A stretch of DNA of 64,000 nucleotides. Origin: Chitinivibrionales bacterium. Lineage in GTDB: Bacteria; Fibrobacterota; Chitinivibrionia; Chitinivibrionales; FEN-1185. Within the stretch, counting starts at the first letter, position 1. Every line of letters begins with the position of its first letter. Made by a program: the position numbers and the translations under genes. Positions 27,813-34,266 of the stretch are shown here, one piece after another. The stretch spans positions 186,001-250,000 of the forward strand of contig DATJAL010000031.1 in the NCBI GenBank assembly GCA_035516255.1, given 5' to 3'. The notes below the pieces were generated by a model. That model was not told the DNA's origin. It made no database searches and was given only the letters and a program-made list of their open reading frames with translations.

Positions 27813-29102
27813 ATGGACAGTATGGAGAAGCTTTCGCAGAAAATCGTCGATCTTTCAAAGAGCACCAAGGACTCGAACAAATTCTATTCCATCGTGCTTG
27901 ATGCGACGGCGTCGACGGTCTCCGAAAACGCCTGCGACATCGCGGAACGCCTGCTGCGCGGGGAGACCGACAACGCCAGGGCCGCGCTCGAGCACCTGTG
28001 GTCGCTCAAGAAAATTATGATAAGTAAAGACGAGGCGGCCACCATCGAGCAGCTCATCCACTATTATCAGAAAAAAATGGACGTGGTGCGCAACAAGGAG
28101 GAGCACATCAGGCAGGTGAGCAGGGATTCGCGCAATCTCCTTGAAGAAAAGGGGAAGCGGGACGTGGAGCTCGCCACGGTACGGCAGGAGATAACCAATT
28201 CCTCAAAGGAGATCAAGGAGCTGGAGGAAAAGGTTGAAAAATATAAAAAAAAGGAGCAGGAGCTTGCCACCATCGACACGGAGGTGCGGAAGGAACTGCT
28301 GGTGAATGAAAATGAAATCATCAACGGCCTGTATGAAATCATCATGTCGCAGCGGGAAGGGCGCAATCCCGTGCAGGATTTCACGGAAAAACTCAAGAGC
28401 CATACCGCGGCCAAGGAAAAGAACCCTGAGGGAGTTTCTGCAGATGAACTGGGAAAAGCCCCTCAGAAAATGCCCTCGGCAGGGCCGTCCCAAAAGCAGG
28501 ACGATAAAACGGTCCGTTCGGCCGGTGCCGCGGCAAAGGGGGCTGCCGACATACCCGTCAACGAGGAAATATTCGAGGTTGACAAGGACAAGACAACGTC
28601 ATTTTCACTTGAAACGTTTGCCAAGGCAAGAAGCGGCGCTGGCGAGCCAAAGGTTTCGAAAGAGACCGGCGAGCCGCGGTTCCCTAAATCGCTGGTAAAG
28701 ACCGCGAACGGCAGCGTCATAGGGGAATACTATTACACCCCACAATTACCGAAAGATAAGCGGCATTATGTTTTGAACAGCAGGTTTTTCCTCGACCGCC
28801 TGTACTCGGCGCTCGGCGTGCTTTCCGTGAGGTCGGACCAAACCATCGCAAACGACATCCTCCACATGATCCGCGATGCGGTAAAACGGATATCGGGCAG
28901 CACCACCATGCATTTCGAGGTTTCCACGGCCGAGATTCTCAACGAGCAGGCGCTCAAGGATCTTTGGCATAATGTCAAGGCTGGCAATTTTGCCGAGGCA
29001 ACGCGGTATTGCTCAAAGTTCGCGGTGAAAATGACGGCCCTCAAGCCGAAATACGCGGCGATGCTCGAAGAACAAATGGGCCGGTATGCCGCGGAAGAAT
29101 AA
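27813..29102 (+). CDS. Uncharacterised coiled-coil protein
   Basis: 429 residues, family not recognised. There is no signal peptide. Residues about 85-180 form a strong coiled coil rich in Lys and Glu, 195-300 are low-complexity and polar, and 300-429 form a compact helical domain (around YVLNSRFFLDRLYSALGVLS). The start is supported by AAGGGGAAAG just upstream and by the promoter at 27736-27765. The next gene, for a membrane-tethered AraC-type protein, overlaps it by 17 nt, so the two are translated together and probably work together. A cytoplasmic partner of the following membrane machine is possible, but nothing in the sequence proves it. Confidence 0.75.
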   Translation: MDSMEKLSQKIVDLSKSTKDSNKFYSIVLDATASTVSENACDIAERLLRGETDNARAALEHLWSLKKIMISKDEAATIEQLIHYYQKKMDVVRNKEEHIRQVSRDSRNLLEEKGKRDVELATVRQEITNSSKEIKELEEKVEKYKKKEQELATIDTEVRKELLVNENEIINGLYEIIMSQREGRNPVQDFTEKLKSHTAAKEKNPEGVSADELGKAPQKMPSAGPSQKQDDKTVRSAGAAAKGAADIPVNEEIFEVDKDKTTSFSLETFAKARSGAGEPKVSKETGEPRFPKSLVKTANGSVIGEYYYTPQLPKDKRHYVLNSRFFLDRLYSALGVLSVRSDQTIANDILHMIRDAVKRISGSTTMHFEVSTAEILNEQALKDLWHNVKAGNFAEATRYCSKFAVKMTALKPKYAAMLEEQMGRYAAEE

Positions 29103-29988
29103 ATCCTGGCCTGACCGTTTTATCACCGCCGTCAAAATCGCGGCGATCCTTTTCCTTTTTAGTTTCCTGTGTTTCGCGGCGCCAAGCCGCGACACCGCCG
29201 CACGACAGGCGGCCGGTGCCAAGGTCAAGGCTGCAAAAACCGCACCAGACACGATTCCGGCAAAGGCCGCTGTAAAAAAAAAACCTGACACGGTGTCGGC
29301 GAAAATCGCAACGGGTGCCGCGGACACCGTGATGCGGCCGCGCGCAGCGTCCATATCCGACACGGCAAAACTGGCGGCGTCTGCCAAAAAGGACACGGTG
29401 CCAATTGTCAAGGCGCAGGCCGAGACTTTGCAGGATTCCACTGCAAAAATTACGGCGTCTGGAATTAAAACCGGAGAAAAAAAAATACCCGCGTCCATTC
29501 CCGATAAAAAATGGACCTCTATCACGAAACCCGCGGCGCTCATCATCTTCCTTGCAGTGGTTGTCTTTGCCGCAATTGTCATCGGCATTGCAAATATTGT
29601 CGCGCAGAAACGCCAGAAGCGGAGATTCCTCACCACCACGCGCCTGTCGGTGATGGACAAGGAAGTACAGAAAGCATGCCGCTACATAGAAAAAAATTAT
29701 TCAAACCCTGAACTCACTGTGCAGAGCATCTGCGCCGCACTGGTAACGGGGGAGGCCTTTCTCGAAGCGCTCATGCAGCGCGACCTCGGTATAAGCATTG
29801 GTGATTTCATCACCCATGTCCGGATCAACAGGGCAAAGGGGCTGGCCCAAAACAACCCTTCTTGTCTGCGGGAATCGGCTGCGCAGCAGACCGGGTTCAT
29901 CGATACGGATGCGTTTGACGCCGAATTTAAAAAGATCACCGGGGTGCCGTTTGAGGAATATTGCCGTGTGCTAAGGGAAAAGACATAA
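29086..29988 (+). CDS. Membrane-tethered protein with AraC-type DNA-binding domain
   Basis: 300 residues. A hydrophobic N-terminal segment (about 13-31) is followed by an about 115-residue Lys/Ala/Thr/Asp-rich region with recurrent DTV-AKA-type units, a transmembrane helix (about 149-170) and, from residue 190, a domain with the AraC/XylS double helix-turn-helix layout: RYIEKNYSNPELTVQSICAA, then AALVTGEAFLEAL, and a second half ending FDAEFKKITGVPFEEY. The predicted topology puts the low-complexity part outside and the DNA-binding part inside. AraC proteins are normally soluble, so this would be a one-component membrane regulator. The gene overlaps its upstream neighbour by 17 nt and precedes the ExbB cluster by 216 nt, its likely target or partner. 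Confidence 0.72.
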   Translation: MPRKNKSWPDRFITAVKIAAILFLFSFLCFAAPSRDTAARQAAGAKVKAAKTAPDTIPAKAAVKKKPDTVSAKIATGAADTVMRPRAASISDTAKLAASAKKDTVPIVKAQAETLQDSTAKITASGIKTGEKKIPASIPDKKWTSITKPAALIIFLAVVVFAAIVIGIANIVAQKRQKRRFLTTTRLSVMDKEVQKACRYIEKNYSNPELTVQSICAALVTGEAFLEALMQRDLGISIGDFITHVRINRAKGLAQNNPSCLRESAAQQTGFIDTDAFDAEFKKITGVPFEEYCRVLREKT

Positions 29989-30204: not shown

Positions 30205-30972
30205 ATGGAATTCATTGTGAAACTGTTGAACGCTTTCAACCCGCGGTCGGACGCATTCCTCTTCATGTGGGCAATTTTAGTGACGGGCGTGTTCAGCATT
30301 TCCGTCATCATTGAACGTTTCATCTATTTGCAGTCCAAATCTTCATTCCGGCCCGTGATGTTCATTAAGGACATCCTGAGCAACATCCAGAAAGACGACA
30401 TTCCCACGGCGCTCAAGGCCTGCGACAAAAACAAGAGCATGGCGCTTTCCGGAGTCATCAAGGCCGGATTAGAGGAGGCCAACACCGGGGCGGAGCGTAT
30501 ACGCAACGCCATTGACGAGGCAATGCTTAAGATCATTCCGCTGCTGGAAAAACGGACCGGATACCTTGCCGTGATCGGCAACGTTGCCACCCTCATGGGG
30601 CTCCTCGGAACGGTGTATGGCCTCATCATGTCGTTTGCCGCGGTGGGACGTCCCGGCATCGACGCCGCCCAGAAGTCCGAACTGCTTGCGTCCGGCATCG
30701 CCACCGCCATGAACTCGACCTTTACCGGACTGTCGGTCGCCATCGCCTCCATCATGGTATACGCGTTCCTCAAGTCCAAGACGCAGAAGATCATCGACGA
30801 GCTTGACGAATATTCGGTGCGCGTGCTCAATTCGCTCATCGAGAAATCGTTCAAGACGCACAAATATCATATCAGCGCGACACAGCTCAAGGAAGGGGTG
30901 GGGCTTCACGTGACGCACAACAACATCAAGATTTTCACGGACAATAAGCTGATAAAGGAAATAAATATCTGA
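30205..30972 (+). CDS. ExbB/TolQ/MotA-type proton channel protein
   Basis: 255 residues with three transmembrane helices (about 18-38, 118-140, 160-185) and the family signature in the last two (LMGLLGTVYGLIMSFAAVG and GIATAMNSTFTGLS). Such proteins form pentameric stators that use the proton gradient to drive ExbD/TolR/TonB-type partners. Starts with an ATG after GGAGG. It opens a run of four co-oriented genes: ExbB, ExbB-ExbD fusion, ExbD and transducer. Upstream is an inverted repeat CTATTGG (30119-30125) / CCAATAG (30139-30145), a possible operator. Whether it serves nutrient uptake, outer-membrane stability or gliding cannot be told from this protein alone. Confidence 0.9.
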   Translation: MEFIVKLLNAFNPRSDAFLFMWAILVTGVFSISVIIERFIYLQSKSSFRPVMFIKDILSNIQKDDIPTALKACDKNKSMALSGVIKAGLEEANTGAERIRNAIDEAMLKIIPLLEKRTGYLAVIGNVATLMGLLGTVYGLIMSFAAVGRPGIDAAQKSELLASGIATAMNSTFTGLSVAIASIMVYAFLKSKTQKIIDELDEYSVRVLNSLIEKSFKTHKYHISATQLKEGVGLHVTHNNIKIFTDNKLIKEINI

Positions 30973-31022: not shown

Positions 31023-32333
31023 ATGGGAATTTTTTCCGAACTGTTGAAATGCTTTCTCCCTGCACATGAAGCTTTTTTCTTCATGTGGATGCTTTTAGCG
31101 CTGGGAGTGACGGCCGTCGTCATCACCATTGAGCGGTGGCTCGACATCAACCGCCGCACCGATTACGATGCCGCCTCGCTGTTCGGGCGAATCAAGAGGC
31201 TCATTGAGGAAAAAAACCTCACCGAGGCATACCGCATTTGCACCTCGGGCGGGCACCGAGCGCTGCCGCGCATCCTCGGCGCGGGCATCAAGAAGGTCGA
31301 GGTGGAGCCGCATCTTGTGGAGGGCGCCATGGGCGAGGAGTCAACCCATATGGCGGCCGCCATGGAAAAACGCCTCCCGCTGCTCGTCATGTTCAGCAAC
31401 GTGTCGACGCTGCTCGGGCTATTGGGCACCGTGTTCGGCCTCATCATGTCGTTTGCCGCCGTGGGAAAACCAGGCGTGGCCGCCGTTGAGAAATCATCGC
31501 TGCTCGCGGCGGGAATTTCGGCCGCCATGAACTCGACGCTGGTGGGACTTTCGATCAGCGTGCCCTGTATTCTTGCTTTTGCGTTTCTGCGCGCCCGCGT
31601 TGACATCGCGCTCGTGGAAATAGACCGTTACGCGGTCGCCATCCTCAACCAGCTCAACCCGCCCACGGACTCACAGAAGAAACTCAATTCGCTCATCCGG
31701 CGTTCCGGCGACGAGGAAGTGGCCGACACCGACGTGACGCCCATGCTCAACCTCATGGTGATGCTCATTCCGTTCCTGCTCACCTCCTCCGAATTTGTCA
31801 AGATGGGGACCATAGAGCTCAAGCTGCCCGAGTCTTCACAGGGCGGAGCGGGCGGCGGCGGGGGCGAAGAAAACCTGCAGAACGTCAAGCTCGAGCTCGG
31901 CGTGGTGATAACCGCGAAAGGGTTTAACCTGTTCCACTATTACAACCAGGCCGAGAAGGCGTCCGCGGCAAACCAGACCCTCGGCGAGAAGGCGGCCGAT
32001 ATCCCGCTTGTCAACGGTGAATACAACTATACGGAGCTCAACAACAAGCTGGCGGAGGTGAAGCGCAAAGTGCTGTACGAAATCGTGCGGCAGTATGATC
32101 CTACCCTGCCGCCCGACGCATCGCTCTTTAAGCTGTACGAGGCATTCGTGTCGAAAAACCTTTCGGGAACCACGGTGTTCGCCGACAACGAGGACATCAA
32201 GCTTGTGGGCGAGGACAAGGTGCAGTATAAGACCGTGGTGGCGGTGATGGATGCCGCGCGGGGTACGCACACGCCCGAAGGCAACGTCACCATGTTTCCG
32301 AATGTGTCAATCGCGGGAGGAATCATACAATAA
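31023..32333 (+). CDS. ExbB-ExbD fusion with Asp-to-Asn change in the ExbD helix
   Basis: 436 residues. Residues 1-215 are a second ExbB/TolQ-type channel protein with the LLGLLGTVFGLIMSFAAVG signature. From about 225 an ExbD/TolR-type part follows in the same frame: a membrane helix after DVTPMLNLMVMLIPFLL, then a large periplasmic domain (about 265-436) with a Gly-rich linker. In ExbD/TolR the helix normally carries an essential Asp (consensus TPLID); here that position is Asn (N243). The next gene encodes an ExbD with the Asp intact, so a mixed complex could have one working and one silent ExbD. The stop and the next start overlap (TAATG). Confidence 0.87.
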   Translation: MGIFSELLKCFLPAHEAFFFMWMLLALGVTAVVITIERWLDINRRTDYDAASLFGRIKRLIEEKNLTEAYRICTSGGHRALPRILGAGIKKVEVEPHLVEGAMGEESTHMAAAMEKRLPLLVMFSNVSTLLGLLGTVFGLIMSFAAVGKPGVAAVEKSSLLAAGISAAMNSTLVGLSISVPCILAFAFLRARVDIALVEIDRYAVAILNQLNPPTDSQKKLNSLIRRSGDEEVADTDVTPMLNLMVMLIPFLLTSSEFVKMGTIELKLPESSQGGAGGGGGEENLQNVKLELGVVITAKGFNLFHYYNQAEKASAANQTLGEKAADIPLVNGEYNYTELNNKLAEVKRKVLYEIVRQYDPTLPPDASLFKLYEAFVSKNLSGTTVFADNEDIKLVGEDKVQYKTVVAVMDAARGTHTPEGNVTMFPNVSIAGGIIQ

Positions 32334-32833
32334 TGTCACAGCAATCCGTACGGAGAAAACACAGAAAACGCAGCGAGGGCACGGTGAAGCTCAACATCAC
32401 CTCGATGATCGACATGTTCACCCTCATGGTGGTGTTCCTGCTCAAGAATTATTCGGCGCAGGGACAGCTCGTTACGCCGGCGAACAATCTCATGCTCCCC
32501 TCGTCGTCCATCGAAAAAAACGCGGCCGAGGCGCTTTCGGTCAAGGTGTCCCAGACCAACATCATGGTCGAGAACACCATCGTCATCGACGAAAAAGGGT
32601 ACCAGGCTGTGCTGGCGCAAAAGGATTTCCTCATTGAACCCCTGTACAATGTGCTGAAAAAGTACTGCGACGAGGCGAAAAAGTCGTCGGAGATGTTCAA
32701 AACGGAATTTTCGGGCAAGATATCCATCCAGGGGGACGTCGCGATTCCGTATAACATGCTGACCAGGATCATGTACACCTGCGGGCAGGCGGGCTATCCG
32801 GTCATGAACCTTGTGGTTTACAGGAAGGCATAA
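32333..32833 (+). CDS. ExbD/TolR-family protein
   Basis: 166 residues: a short basic cytoplasmic N-terminus, one transmembrane helix (about 21-42) with the conserved protonatable aspartate (D27 in TSMIDMFTLMVVFLL), and a periplasmic domain ending in the typical MNLVVYRKA-like strand. It pairs with the ExbB-type proteins encoded upstream to convert proton flow into movement. Its start overlaps the preceding stop by 1 nt and its stop overlaps the next start, so three products are translationally coupled. It is somewhat longer than classical ExbD. Confidence 0.87.
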   Translation: MSQQSVRRKHRKRSEGTVKLNITSMIDMFTLMVVFLLKNYSAQGQLVTPANNLMLPSSSIEKNAAEALSVKVSQTNIMVENTIVIDEKGYQAVLAQKDFLIEPLYNVLKKYCDEAKKSSEMFKTEFSGKISIQGDVAIPYNMLTRIMYTCGQAGYPVMNLVVYRKA

Positions 32834-33906
32834 TGGCGAACATCGGCAAGTCGGGCCTTTTTTACATACAAAATTCGGGCGAGATCTCTCTCGCGGGGTT
32901 TCCGAAGGATCTCCGCAGGGGCCTGTTGTCCCGGATCGAGCCCCGATTCATGATCATCTTCAGCTCGCTTCTGTTTTTTGCCTTCAGCACGGTGTTGATT
33001 CTCTCTTTTGTCAAGGTATCCGAAACGGTGAGCGAAAAGGAGATTGTAAAAATACAGGAACGGTATGCGCAACTCGTGCTGAACCAGCCCAAGGCCAAGC
33101 CGCCCGAAACAAAGGCGGCGACAAAAGCAAAAACGGCCGAAAAAGGAAAATCCGCGGCGGAGGCGGCGAAAGAGGAGGCGAAGGTCGACCGTGAAAAGGA
33201 GACCTTCGTGGCTCGCAAGGAGCGGCAGGTGGCGACCGCGGCGCAGCGCCAGGCCGTGCGCGAGAAAGTGGCGGCCGCGGTCCAGACCGCGGGAATTTTT
33301 GCCGCCATCACCGCTTCGGCGGGAGGCGGAAAAGGCGGCCATTCATCCGGTGGGAGCGTCACCGACCTGCTCGGCGCGGCGGGCGACGGCATCGGCGACC
33401 TGGGGAGCATAAAGGTCTCAAAAGGGACGTTCGCCACGCGGGGTAACATTGATGTGGCCGAACTCAAGGCGCGCCGCGGCACCGTGACGTCGGGCGTTGA
33501 CATCGCGCGCGAAAGCGTGGGCCGGGCCAACGCGCAGCGTCTCTCCTCAGCGGGGAGCGTCAACATCACATCGACGCCGCCCGAGATCACGGGAGAAACG
33601 GGCGGTGCGGAGGCGAGAAGTCAGGCATCAATCCAGAAGGTCATCACCCTTGAACAGCAGCGTATCAAGCGCGTCTATGAAAACTGGCTCAAGAGGGATC
33701 CGACGCTTTCGGGCTCGCTCAAGGTTAAGTTCACCATCATGCCCGACGGCAGCGTGTCGAACGTAAGCGTTATCGCTTCTACTACCAAGAACTCCGAATT
33801 TGACGACGCGATCGTGCGGTATATTAAGCGCTGGGCGTTCCTGCCGGTCCAAGGCGGCGGTCCGGTGGAAGTCGTGGTTCCGTTTGCCTTGGAGGCGCAG
33901 ACCTGA
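32833..33906 (+). CDS. TonB/AgmX-like energy-transducing protein
   Basis: 357 residues. After a cytoplasmic N-terminus there is one transmembrane helix (about 39-60), a long Lys/Ala/Glu-rich stretch able to span the periplasm, a Gly/Ser-rich segment, and a C-terminal TonB-like domain (about 265-357) around SLKVKFTIMPDGSVSNVSV and RYIKRWAFLP. This C-terminus resembles the AgmX/PglI C-terminal domain known from Myxococcus gliding proteins as well as TonB. It probably receives energy from the ExbB/ExbD proteins encoded just upstream and acts on an outer-membrane or surface partner. No TonB-dependent receptor gene is adjacent, which favours a non-uptake role. Confidence 0.82.
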   Translation: MANIGKSGLFYIQNSGEISLAGFPKDLRRGLLSRIEPRFMIIFSSLLFFAFSTVLILSFVKVSETVSEKEIVKIQERYAQLVLNQPKAKPPETKAATKAKTAEKGKSAAEAAKEEAKVDREKETFVARKERQVATAAQRQAVREKVAAAVQTAGIFAAITASAGGGKGGHSSGGSVTDLLGAAGDGIGDLGSIKVSKGTFATRGNIDVAELKARRGTVTSGVDIARESVGRANAQRLSSAGSVNITSTPPEITGETGGAEARSQASIQKVITLEQQRIKRVYENWLKRDPTLSGSLKVKFTIMPDGSVSNVSVIASTTKNSEFDDAIVRYIKRWAFLPVQGGGPVEVVVPFALEAQT

Positions 33907-33954: not shown

Positions 33955-34266
33955 ATGAAGGACAGGGCCAGTGAACGTATCGAATTTGTCAATGTGAACG
34001 GGTCACAGGTGCCGGCGCTTTTTGACCTCAGCAAGACCGGTGTATGTTGCTTCAGCGCGAAGAAACTGGACAAGGGGGCCGTCGCTTCCCTCACCATCAA
34101 CAAACTTTCAATCAAGGCGAGGGTCATTTACAGCCAGGACCGTCTCGACGGCTTTAGGGTCGGCATGCAATTCATTGAAGTGACCCCGCAGCAGCAGGAA
34201 ACCCTTAACGATTTGGTGGATAAATTTTCCCGCGGAGTTCCGCTTTCCTGTACCATTGAAGGGTGA
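33955..34266 (+). CDS. PilZ-domain protein
   Basis: 103 residues, a single PilZ domain. The c-di-GMP-binding motifs are visible: the Arg pair near the N-terminus (RASERIEF) and DLSKTG as the DxSxxG motif. Such proteins bind cyclic di-GMP and pass the signal to motility, secretion or surface-polysaccharide machines. The gene lies 48 nt after the transducer gene in the same direction, with AGGAGAG before the ATG, so c-di-GMP may control the ExbB/ExbD machine. That link is inferred from position. The protein has no output domain of its own. Confidence 0.88.
   Translation: MKDRASERIEFVNVNGSQVPALFDLSKTGVCCFSAKKLDKGAVASLTINKLSIKARVIYSQDRLDGFRVGMQFIEVTPQQQETLNDLVDKFSRGVPLSCTIEG

Follow-up and report, generated by a model that had tools for sequence, protein, structure and literature searches.

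The window, that is, the whole stretch of 64,000 nucleotides analyzed here, contains a gene cluster that probably encodes a proton-driven 5:2 motor in which two different ExbDs, only one of them with the proton-carrying Asp, form the axle as an obligate heterodimer. The sequence basis consists of a conserved, one-sided loss of the Asp, the pairing of both ExbDs in an operon, the retention of the pore threonines and the frequent loss of the residue equivalent to Glu176 of Escherichia coli ExbB. The heterodimer itself and a cycle with a single proton site are what we infer from these sequences. The recurrence of the lopsided pair in several phyla suggests that motors with one proton site, versus two in their relatives, are a genuine class. 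In a literature library with few subscription papers and no bioRxiv preprints, no paper was found that describes ExbD pairs in which one member lacks the Asp.

All genes of the motor cluster are located on the forward strand. The first encodes a free channel subunit, ExbB1, of 255 aa (30205–30972; Pfam MotA_ExbB, 6.4e-26, 91 bits). It is followed by an ExbB2~ExbD fusion of 436 aa (31023–32333), identified by alignments and by Pfam matches to MotA_ExbB at residues 82–198 (1.8e-20, 73.4 bits) and to ExbD at residues 231–413 (8.2e-12, 45.7 bits), with residues 1–212 forming the ExbB part and residues 225–436 or so the ExbD part. The partner ExbD is 166 aa long (32333–32833; Pfam ExbD, 2.0e-13, 50.9 bits). 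The Pfam cut-offs are passed by both domains of the fusion, by ExbB1 and by the partner ExbD. The fusion and the partner exbD gene share nucleotides of their stop and start codons (TAATG), indicating that both are translationally coupled, and the exbD stop codon likewise overlaps the start of the next gene. The latter (32833–33906) encodes a TonB-like transducer with an AgmX/PglI C-terminal tail (NCBIfam NF033768, 1.1e-22, above its cut-off) and a partial similarity to GltG (NF033760, 5e-31, 107.9 bits), which spans the C-terminal half and the tail alone and lies far under the cut-off of 650 bits. A gene for a PilZ-domain protein (33955–34266; Pfam PilZ, 4.8e-9) and then secA come next. The order ExbB1, fusion, ExbD, TonB-like protein, PilZ (where found) and SecA is conserved across the Fibrobacterota records, the position of the PilZ gene behind the motor genes being mostly conserved. 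No TPR gene was identified among the neighbours scanned in the window. Positions 29086–29988 encode a protein with an AraC-type helix-turn-helix domain, a hydrophobic N-terminal stretch and a second such stretch near residues 150–170; because of these two stretches it is possibly a membrane-anchored regulator. Of the relatives, only the closest one has a gene of this type next to the motor (L042, 945–1904).

The ExbD helix of the fusion reads VTPMLNLMVMLIPFLL and contains Asn243 (codon AAC, 31749–31751) at the site of ExbD Asp25, the proton-carrying residue. The first-pass annotation had pointed to this substitution and to the Asp kept by the adjacent ExbD, and both are borne out: Asn243 by its codon and by alignment with the Asp of three ordinary ExbDs encoded in the same genome, and Asp27 of the partner by its GAC codon (32411–32413). 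No other acidic residue aligns at the site. The alignment further places Pro250 at +7 and Glu257 at +14 in the ExbD part of the fusion, and the partner has Ser24 at −3 and Lys38 at +11. Both ExbBs keep Thr136 and Thr172, the equivalents of E. coli ExbB Thr148 and Thr181. The Glu176 equivalent is missing in both, a feature absent from that annotation, and is replaced by Ala167 in the fusion (alignment) and by Thr167 in ExbB1 (homology to the fusion and PDB alignment). An AlphaFold monomer of the fusion (pTM 0.47) has a poor ExbD helix, with residues 217–284 too uncertain to place Asn243.

The whole fusion protein was searched against 60 relatives, the residue playing no part in the selection. 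The 20 orthologues, including that of the window, all stem from Fibrobacterota and carry Asn (18) or Gly (2) at this position, never Asp. The expected conservation among orthologues thus holds in full for the loss of Asp and in 18 cases for Asn itself. The partner ExbD has its Asp in all 18 cases in which it was seen beside a fusion orthologue. Two further Asn/Asp pairs, both unfused, occur in the same genome (L005, L010), as does an orphan ExbD-like protein of the Asn type with neither an adjoining ExbB nor an Asp partner (L009, 1486–2325 of C16). Since the orthologues never carry Asp and L005, L010 and L009 have Asn as well, sequencing error or chance is ruled out as the source of Asn243. 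The idea that Asn serves as a specific mimic of a protonated Asp is weakened by the occurrence of Ser, Gly and Ala variants; the conserved trait is therefore the loss of the carboxylate, not Asn. A separate fusion event is represented by L002 of the same genome (C52), where a free ExbB (1–837) is followed by an ExbB~ExbD fusion (841–1878) that keeps its Asp and has no second ExbD.

We collected 157 tandem ExbD pairs from Fibrobacterota, Myxococcota, Bdellovibrionota, Nitrospinota and other deltaproteobacteria by scanning named genomes with the partner ExbD and two DNA patterns and by searching two further phylum-wide samples with a profile of the first ExbD. The second ExbD carries Asp in all 157 pairs, some of which are near-identical. 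The first ExbD carries Asn in 65, Ser in 14, Ala in 7, Gly in 3 and Asp in 68, proportions that do not represent natural frequencies because the Asp of the second ExbD is part of one DNA pattern, and sequences of the Asn type make up most of the first-ExbD profile. In the two phylum-wide sets, which were not selected on the second ExbD, this protein still always has Asp. Operons with the order ExbB, neutral ExbD, ExbD with Asp are found in Fibrobacterota (fused), in Nitrospinota and deltaproteobacterial lineages (Asn) and in Bdellovibrionales/Bacteriovoracales (Ser). The profile of the first ExbD has matches, not all of the Asn type, in 80 of 113 genomes taken to be Myxococcota for their GltG content, and in 64 of 78 genomes taken to be Bdellovibrionota. 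A large genome taken to be myxobacterial encodes three consecutive ExbDs with Asn, Asp and Asn, respectively (L105). A plasmid collection searched for relatives gave weak matches to Pseudoalteromonas ExbDs only.

In a tree built from ExbB and both ExbDs, with the trait columns masked, the label of the first ExbD requires seven changes, of which at least five are forced by starred branches. All changes are one-sided, with none on the second ExbD. An earlier tree favours two clades of the type with Asp in both ExbDs (D/D), and a single origin is compatible with the AU test on a thinned set (p 0.12). A lone Asp inside an Asn clade (L069) represents either a reversion or a retention; in the ExbB of this system, the stretch around Glu176 is deleted.

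Among the columns of ExbB, the one aligned to E. coli ExbB Glu176 separates D/D systems best from those with a neutral first ExbD (Jensen-Shannon 0.95). Glu is found there in 44 of 49 D/D systems versus 1 of 73 others, and Thr occupies the Thr148 and Thr181 equivalents in 109 of 109 ExbBs. In the Bdellovibrionota, which were held out and examined afterwards, the coupling is weaker, with Glu in 7 of 13 Asp systems versus 1 of 12 neutral ones (Fisher p 0.02, uncorrected for kinship). The starred branches offer only four independent pairs, with which the sign test of the link between Glu and Asp is underpowered and not significant. We therefore do not maintain a strict coupling of both losses, and the link is partly owed to shared ancestry. 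Exceptions occur in both directions, as L005 and L219 combine Asn with Glu and L233 and L238 combine Asp with Ile or Val. Systems of the latter kind, with Asp kept and Glu gone, suggest that Glu may be lost before Asp. Two residues near the site behave similarly. In the first set, Pro at +7 is present in 76 of 77 neutral systems and in none of 37 Asp systems. It also occurs in five Asp systems from the held-out Bdellovibrionota, and was rejected as a diagnostic of the loss. At −3, all 75 neutral systems of the first set have Ser in place of Pro in the partner ExbD, and in the Bdellovibrionota Ser is also found in most Asp systems.

The proposed motor would be of the ExbB/ExbD, AglRQS-like kind, with two different proteins as axle subunits. 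The ExbD of the second gene carries the proton-binding Asp, the first (here fused to ExbB) has lost it, and both would heterodimerise inside one ExbB pentamer. One carboxylate per axle would then cycle protons. Because each ExbB would pass a single active site per turn, a revolution would need about five protons and proceed in steps of 72 degrees, compared with ten protons and steps of 36 degrees. The Asp helix would do the work, the neutral helix would hold the axle and the periplasmic domain, and the TonB/GltG-like protein would relay the force to envelope proteins. Through the fusion, the neutral axle subunit of Fibrobacterota would also be linked firmly to one ExbB2. As this subunit brings its own ExbB, the ring would contain at least one ExbB2, probably as four ExbB1 and one fusion. 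One proton-carrying ExbD per axle is the simplest reading, since the Asp loss is conserved, the partner always has Asp, no acidic substitute is present and the operon pair is strict. To this extent the asymmetric motor predicted in the first-pass annotation stands. Its dependence on a fusion and two ExbB genes does not, as the pair outside Fibrobacterota consists of one ExbB and two unfused ExbDs. The Asn subunit may be structural, as that annotation has it, and may be bound one-to-one to a channel subunit once the ring is assembled; the latter would concern only the Fibrobacterota fusion.

The Asp has been called absolutely required, the two TolR Asp exchanging protonation states in 36-degree steps (review, PMC12905483). 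In Myxococcus xanthus, the D28N substitution in AglQ abolishes proton conductance (PMC3858216). A one-Asp motor must therefore differ from AglRQS and some compensation is expected, for which the loss of the ExbB Glu ring would be a candidate. In the cryo-EM structure of TolQRA the two Asp sit in unequal surroundings (PMC12965293), an inequality that a neutral/Asp pair would fix in the genes. More tentatively, and with less confidence than we place in the heterodimer of the window, these systems may belong to a natural and widespread class of 5:2 motors whose axle has a single protonatable carboxylate, with half the protons per turn and a hard-wired asymmetric cycle, enabled by the removal of the ExbB glutamate ring. 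Current models of ExbBD, TolQR and MotAB let two axle Asp exchange protonation states in 36-degree steps, and the need for both is hard to test in homodimers. Here each position has a gene to itself and one of them is neutral from the outset, which makes it possible to mutate either site independently and learn its role. If such motors work, two alternating carboxylates are not required by the 5:2 design.

Both ExbDs might instead form separate homodimeric motors while drawing on the same ExbB pool. One of these, ExbB5-ExbD(Asp)2, would be active, whereas the other, ExbB5-ExbD(Asn)2, would be proton-dead and serve as a brake, anchor or regulator. Orphan neutral ExbDs (L009, L099) fit this arrangement, and whether AglQ and AglS form homo- or heterodimers is stated as unknown (PMC9389320). 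We consider it unlikely, given that in most phyla the two genes are paired almost strictly 1:1 and accompanied by one ExbB. The shared ExbB also lacks Glu, so the active homodimer would be changed too. In addition, all 22 first ExbDs with Glu at +14, which belong to about two clades, have a partner with Lys at +11, a co-occurrence across both helices. In the window, the corresponding Glu257 (codon 31791–31793) and Lys38 of the partner could form an ion pair across the two axle helices.

It is quite improbable that the proton site has moved, with the proton carried by a different acidic residue, either in the neutral subunit or in ExbB, and two sites remaining. GldLM is a known motor whose site lies elsewhere, and in the Fibrobacterota fusions position +14 of the same helix is always Glu. 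However, this position sits about four turns toward the periplasm and is acidic in only 22 of 75 neutral ExbDs, which have no other acidic residue from −3 to +16, and the sole conserved pore Glu of ExbB was lost, not gained. Least probable of all is ordinary decay of the first ExbD into a degenerating paralogue no longer engaged in energy coupling: several residues (Asn, Ser, Gly, Ala) are tolerated at the site, but the helix and the periplasmic domain are conserved over several phyla together with synteny, and the residues flanking the site in neutral ExbDs (Pro at −3 and +7, IPFLL) are highly conserved.

The closest described system is AglRQS with Glt/Nfs of M. xanthus (Luciano et al., 2011, PMC3169522; PMC3858216), in whose operon an ExbB gene likewise precedes a pair of ExbD paralogues. 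Asp is present in AglQ as well as in AglS (PMC9389320), whereas the window type has one Asp and an ExbB without Glu. The window system is thus related to AglRQS and predicted to work like it, but lacks the two-Asp feature. ExbBD-TonB and TolQR-TolA of E. coli share the Pfam families and the pore threonines, and the 5:2 architecture is assumed from this homology; they differ in their homodimeric axle with two Asp and in the presence of Glu176 in ExbB and of its TolQ equivalent (alignment). TolQ-linked vWA proteins with a transpore helix are reported to form heterologous pairs, likewise of the 5:2 type with a predicted two-protein axle, but both partners are reported to have a conserved aspartate and they are not ExbDs (PMC12204202).

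The Asn- and Ser-type operons L059, L061, L062, L072 and L083 adjoin genes for TPR proteins and/or GltG-like proteins with an AgmX tail. GltD/E-like TPR proteins lie beside the Asn type in several deltaproteobacterial lineages and a GltC-like gene in L072 alone; the Asn-type operons of several such lineages thereby resemble the ‘core’ Agl-Glt complex (PMC3169522). Large myxobacteria whose genomes are rich in GltG contain putative AglQ-like operons, presumed to be such from this richness, from the length of the protein and from its Asp at residue 28. These AglRQS-like operons are of the D/D type with the ExbB Glu in nearly all, and their first ExbD has a length of 159–162 aa in several. In the large GltG-rich genomes L210–L216, two divergent ExbB-ExbD-ExbD operons lie side by side, with Asp in every ExbD.
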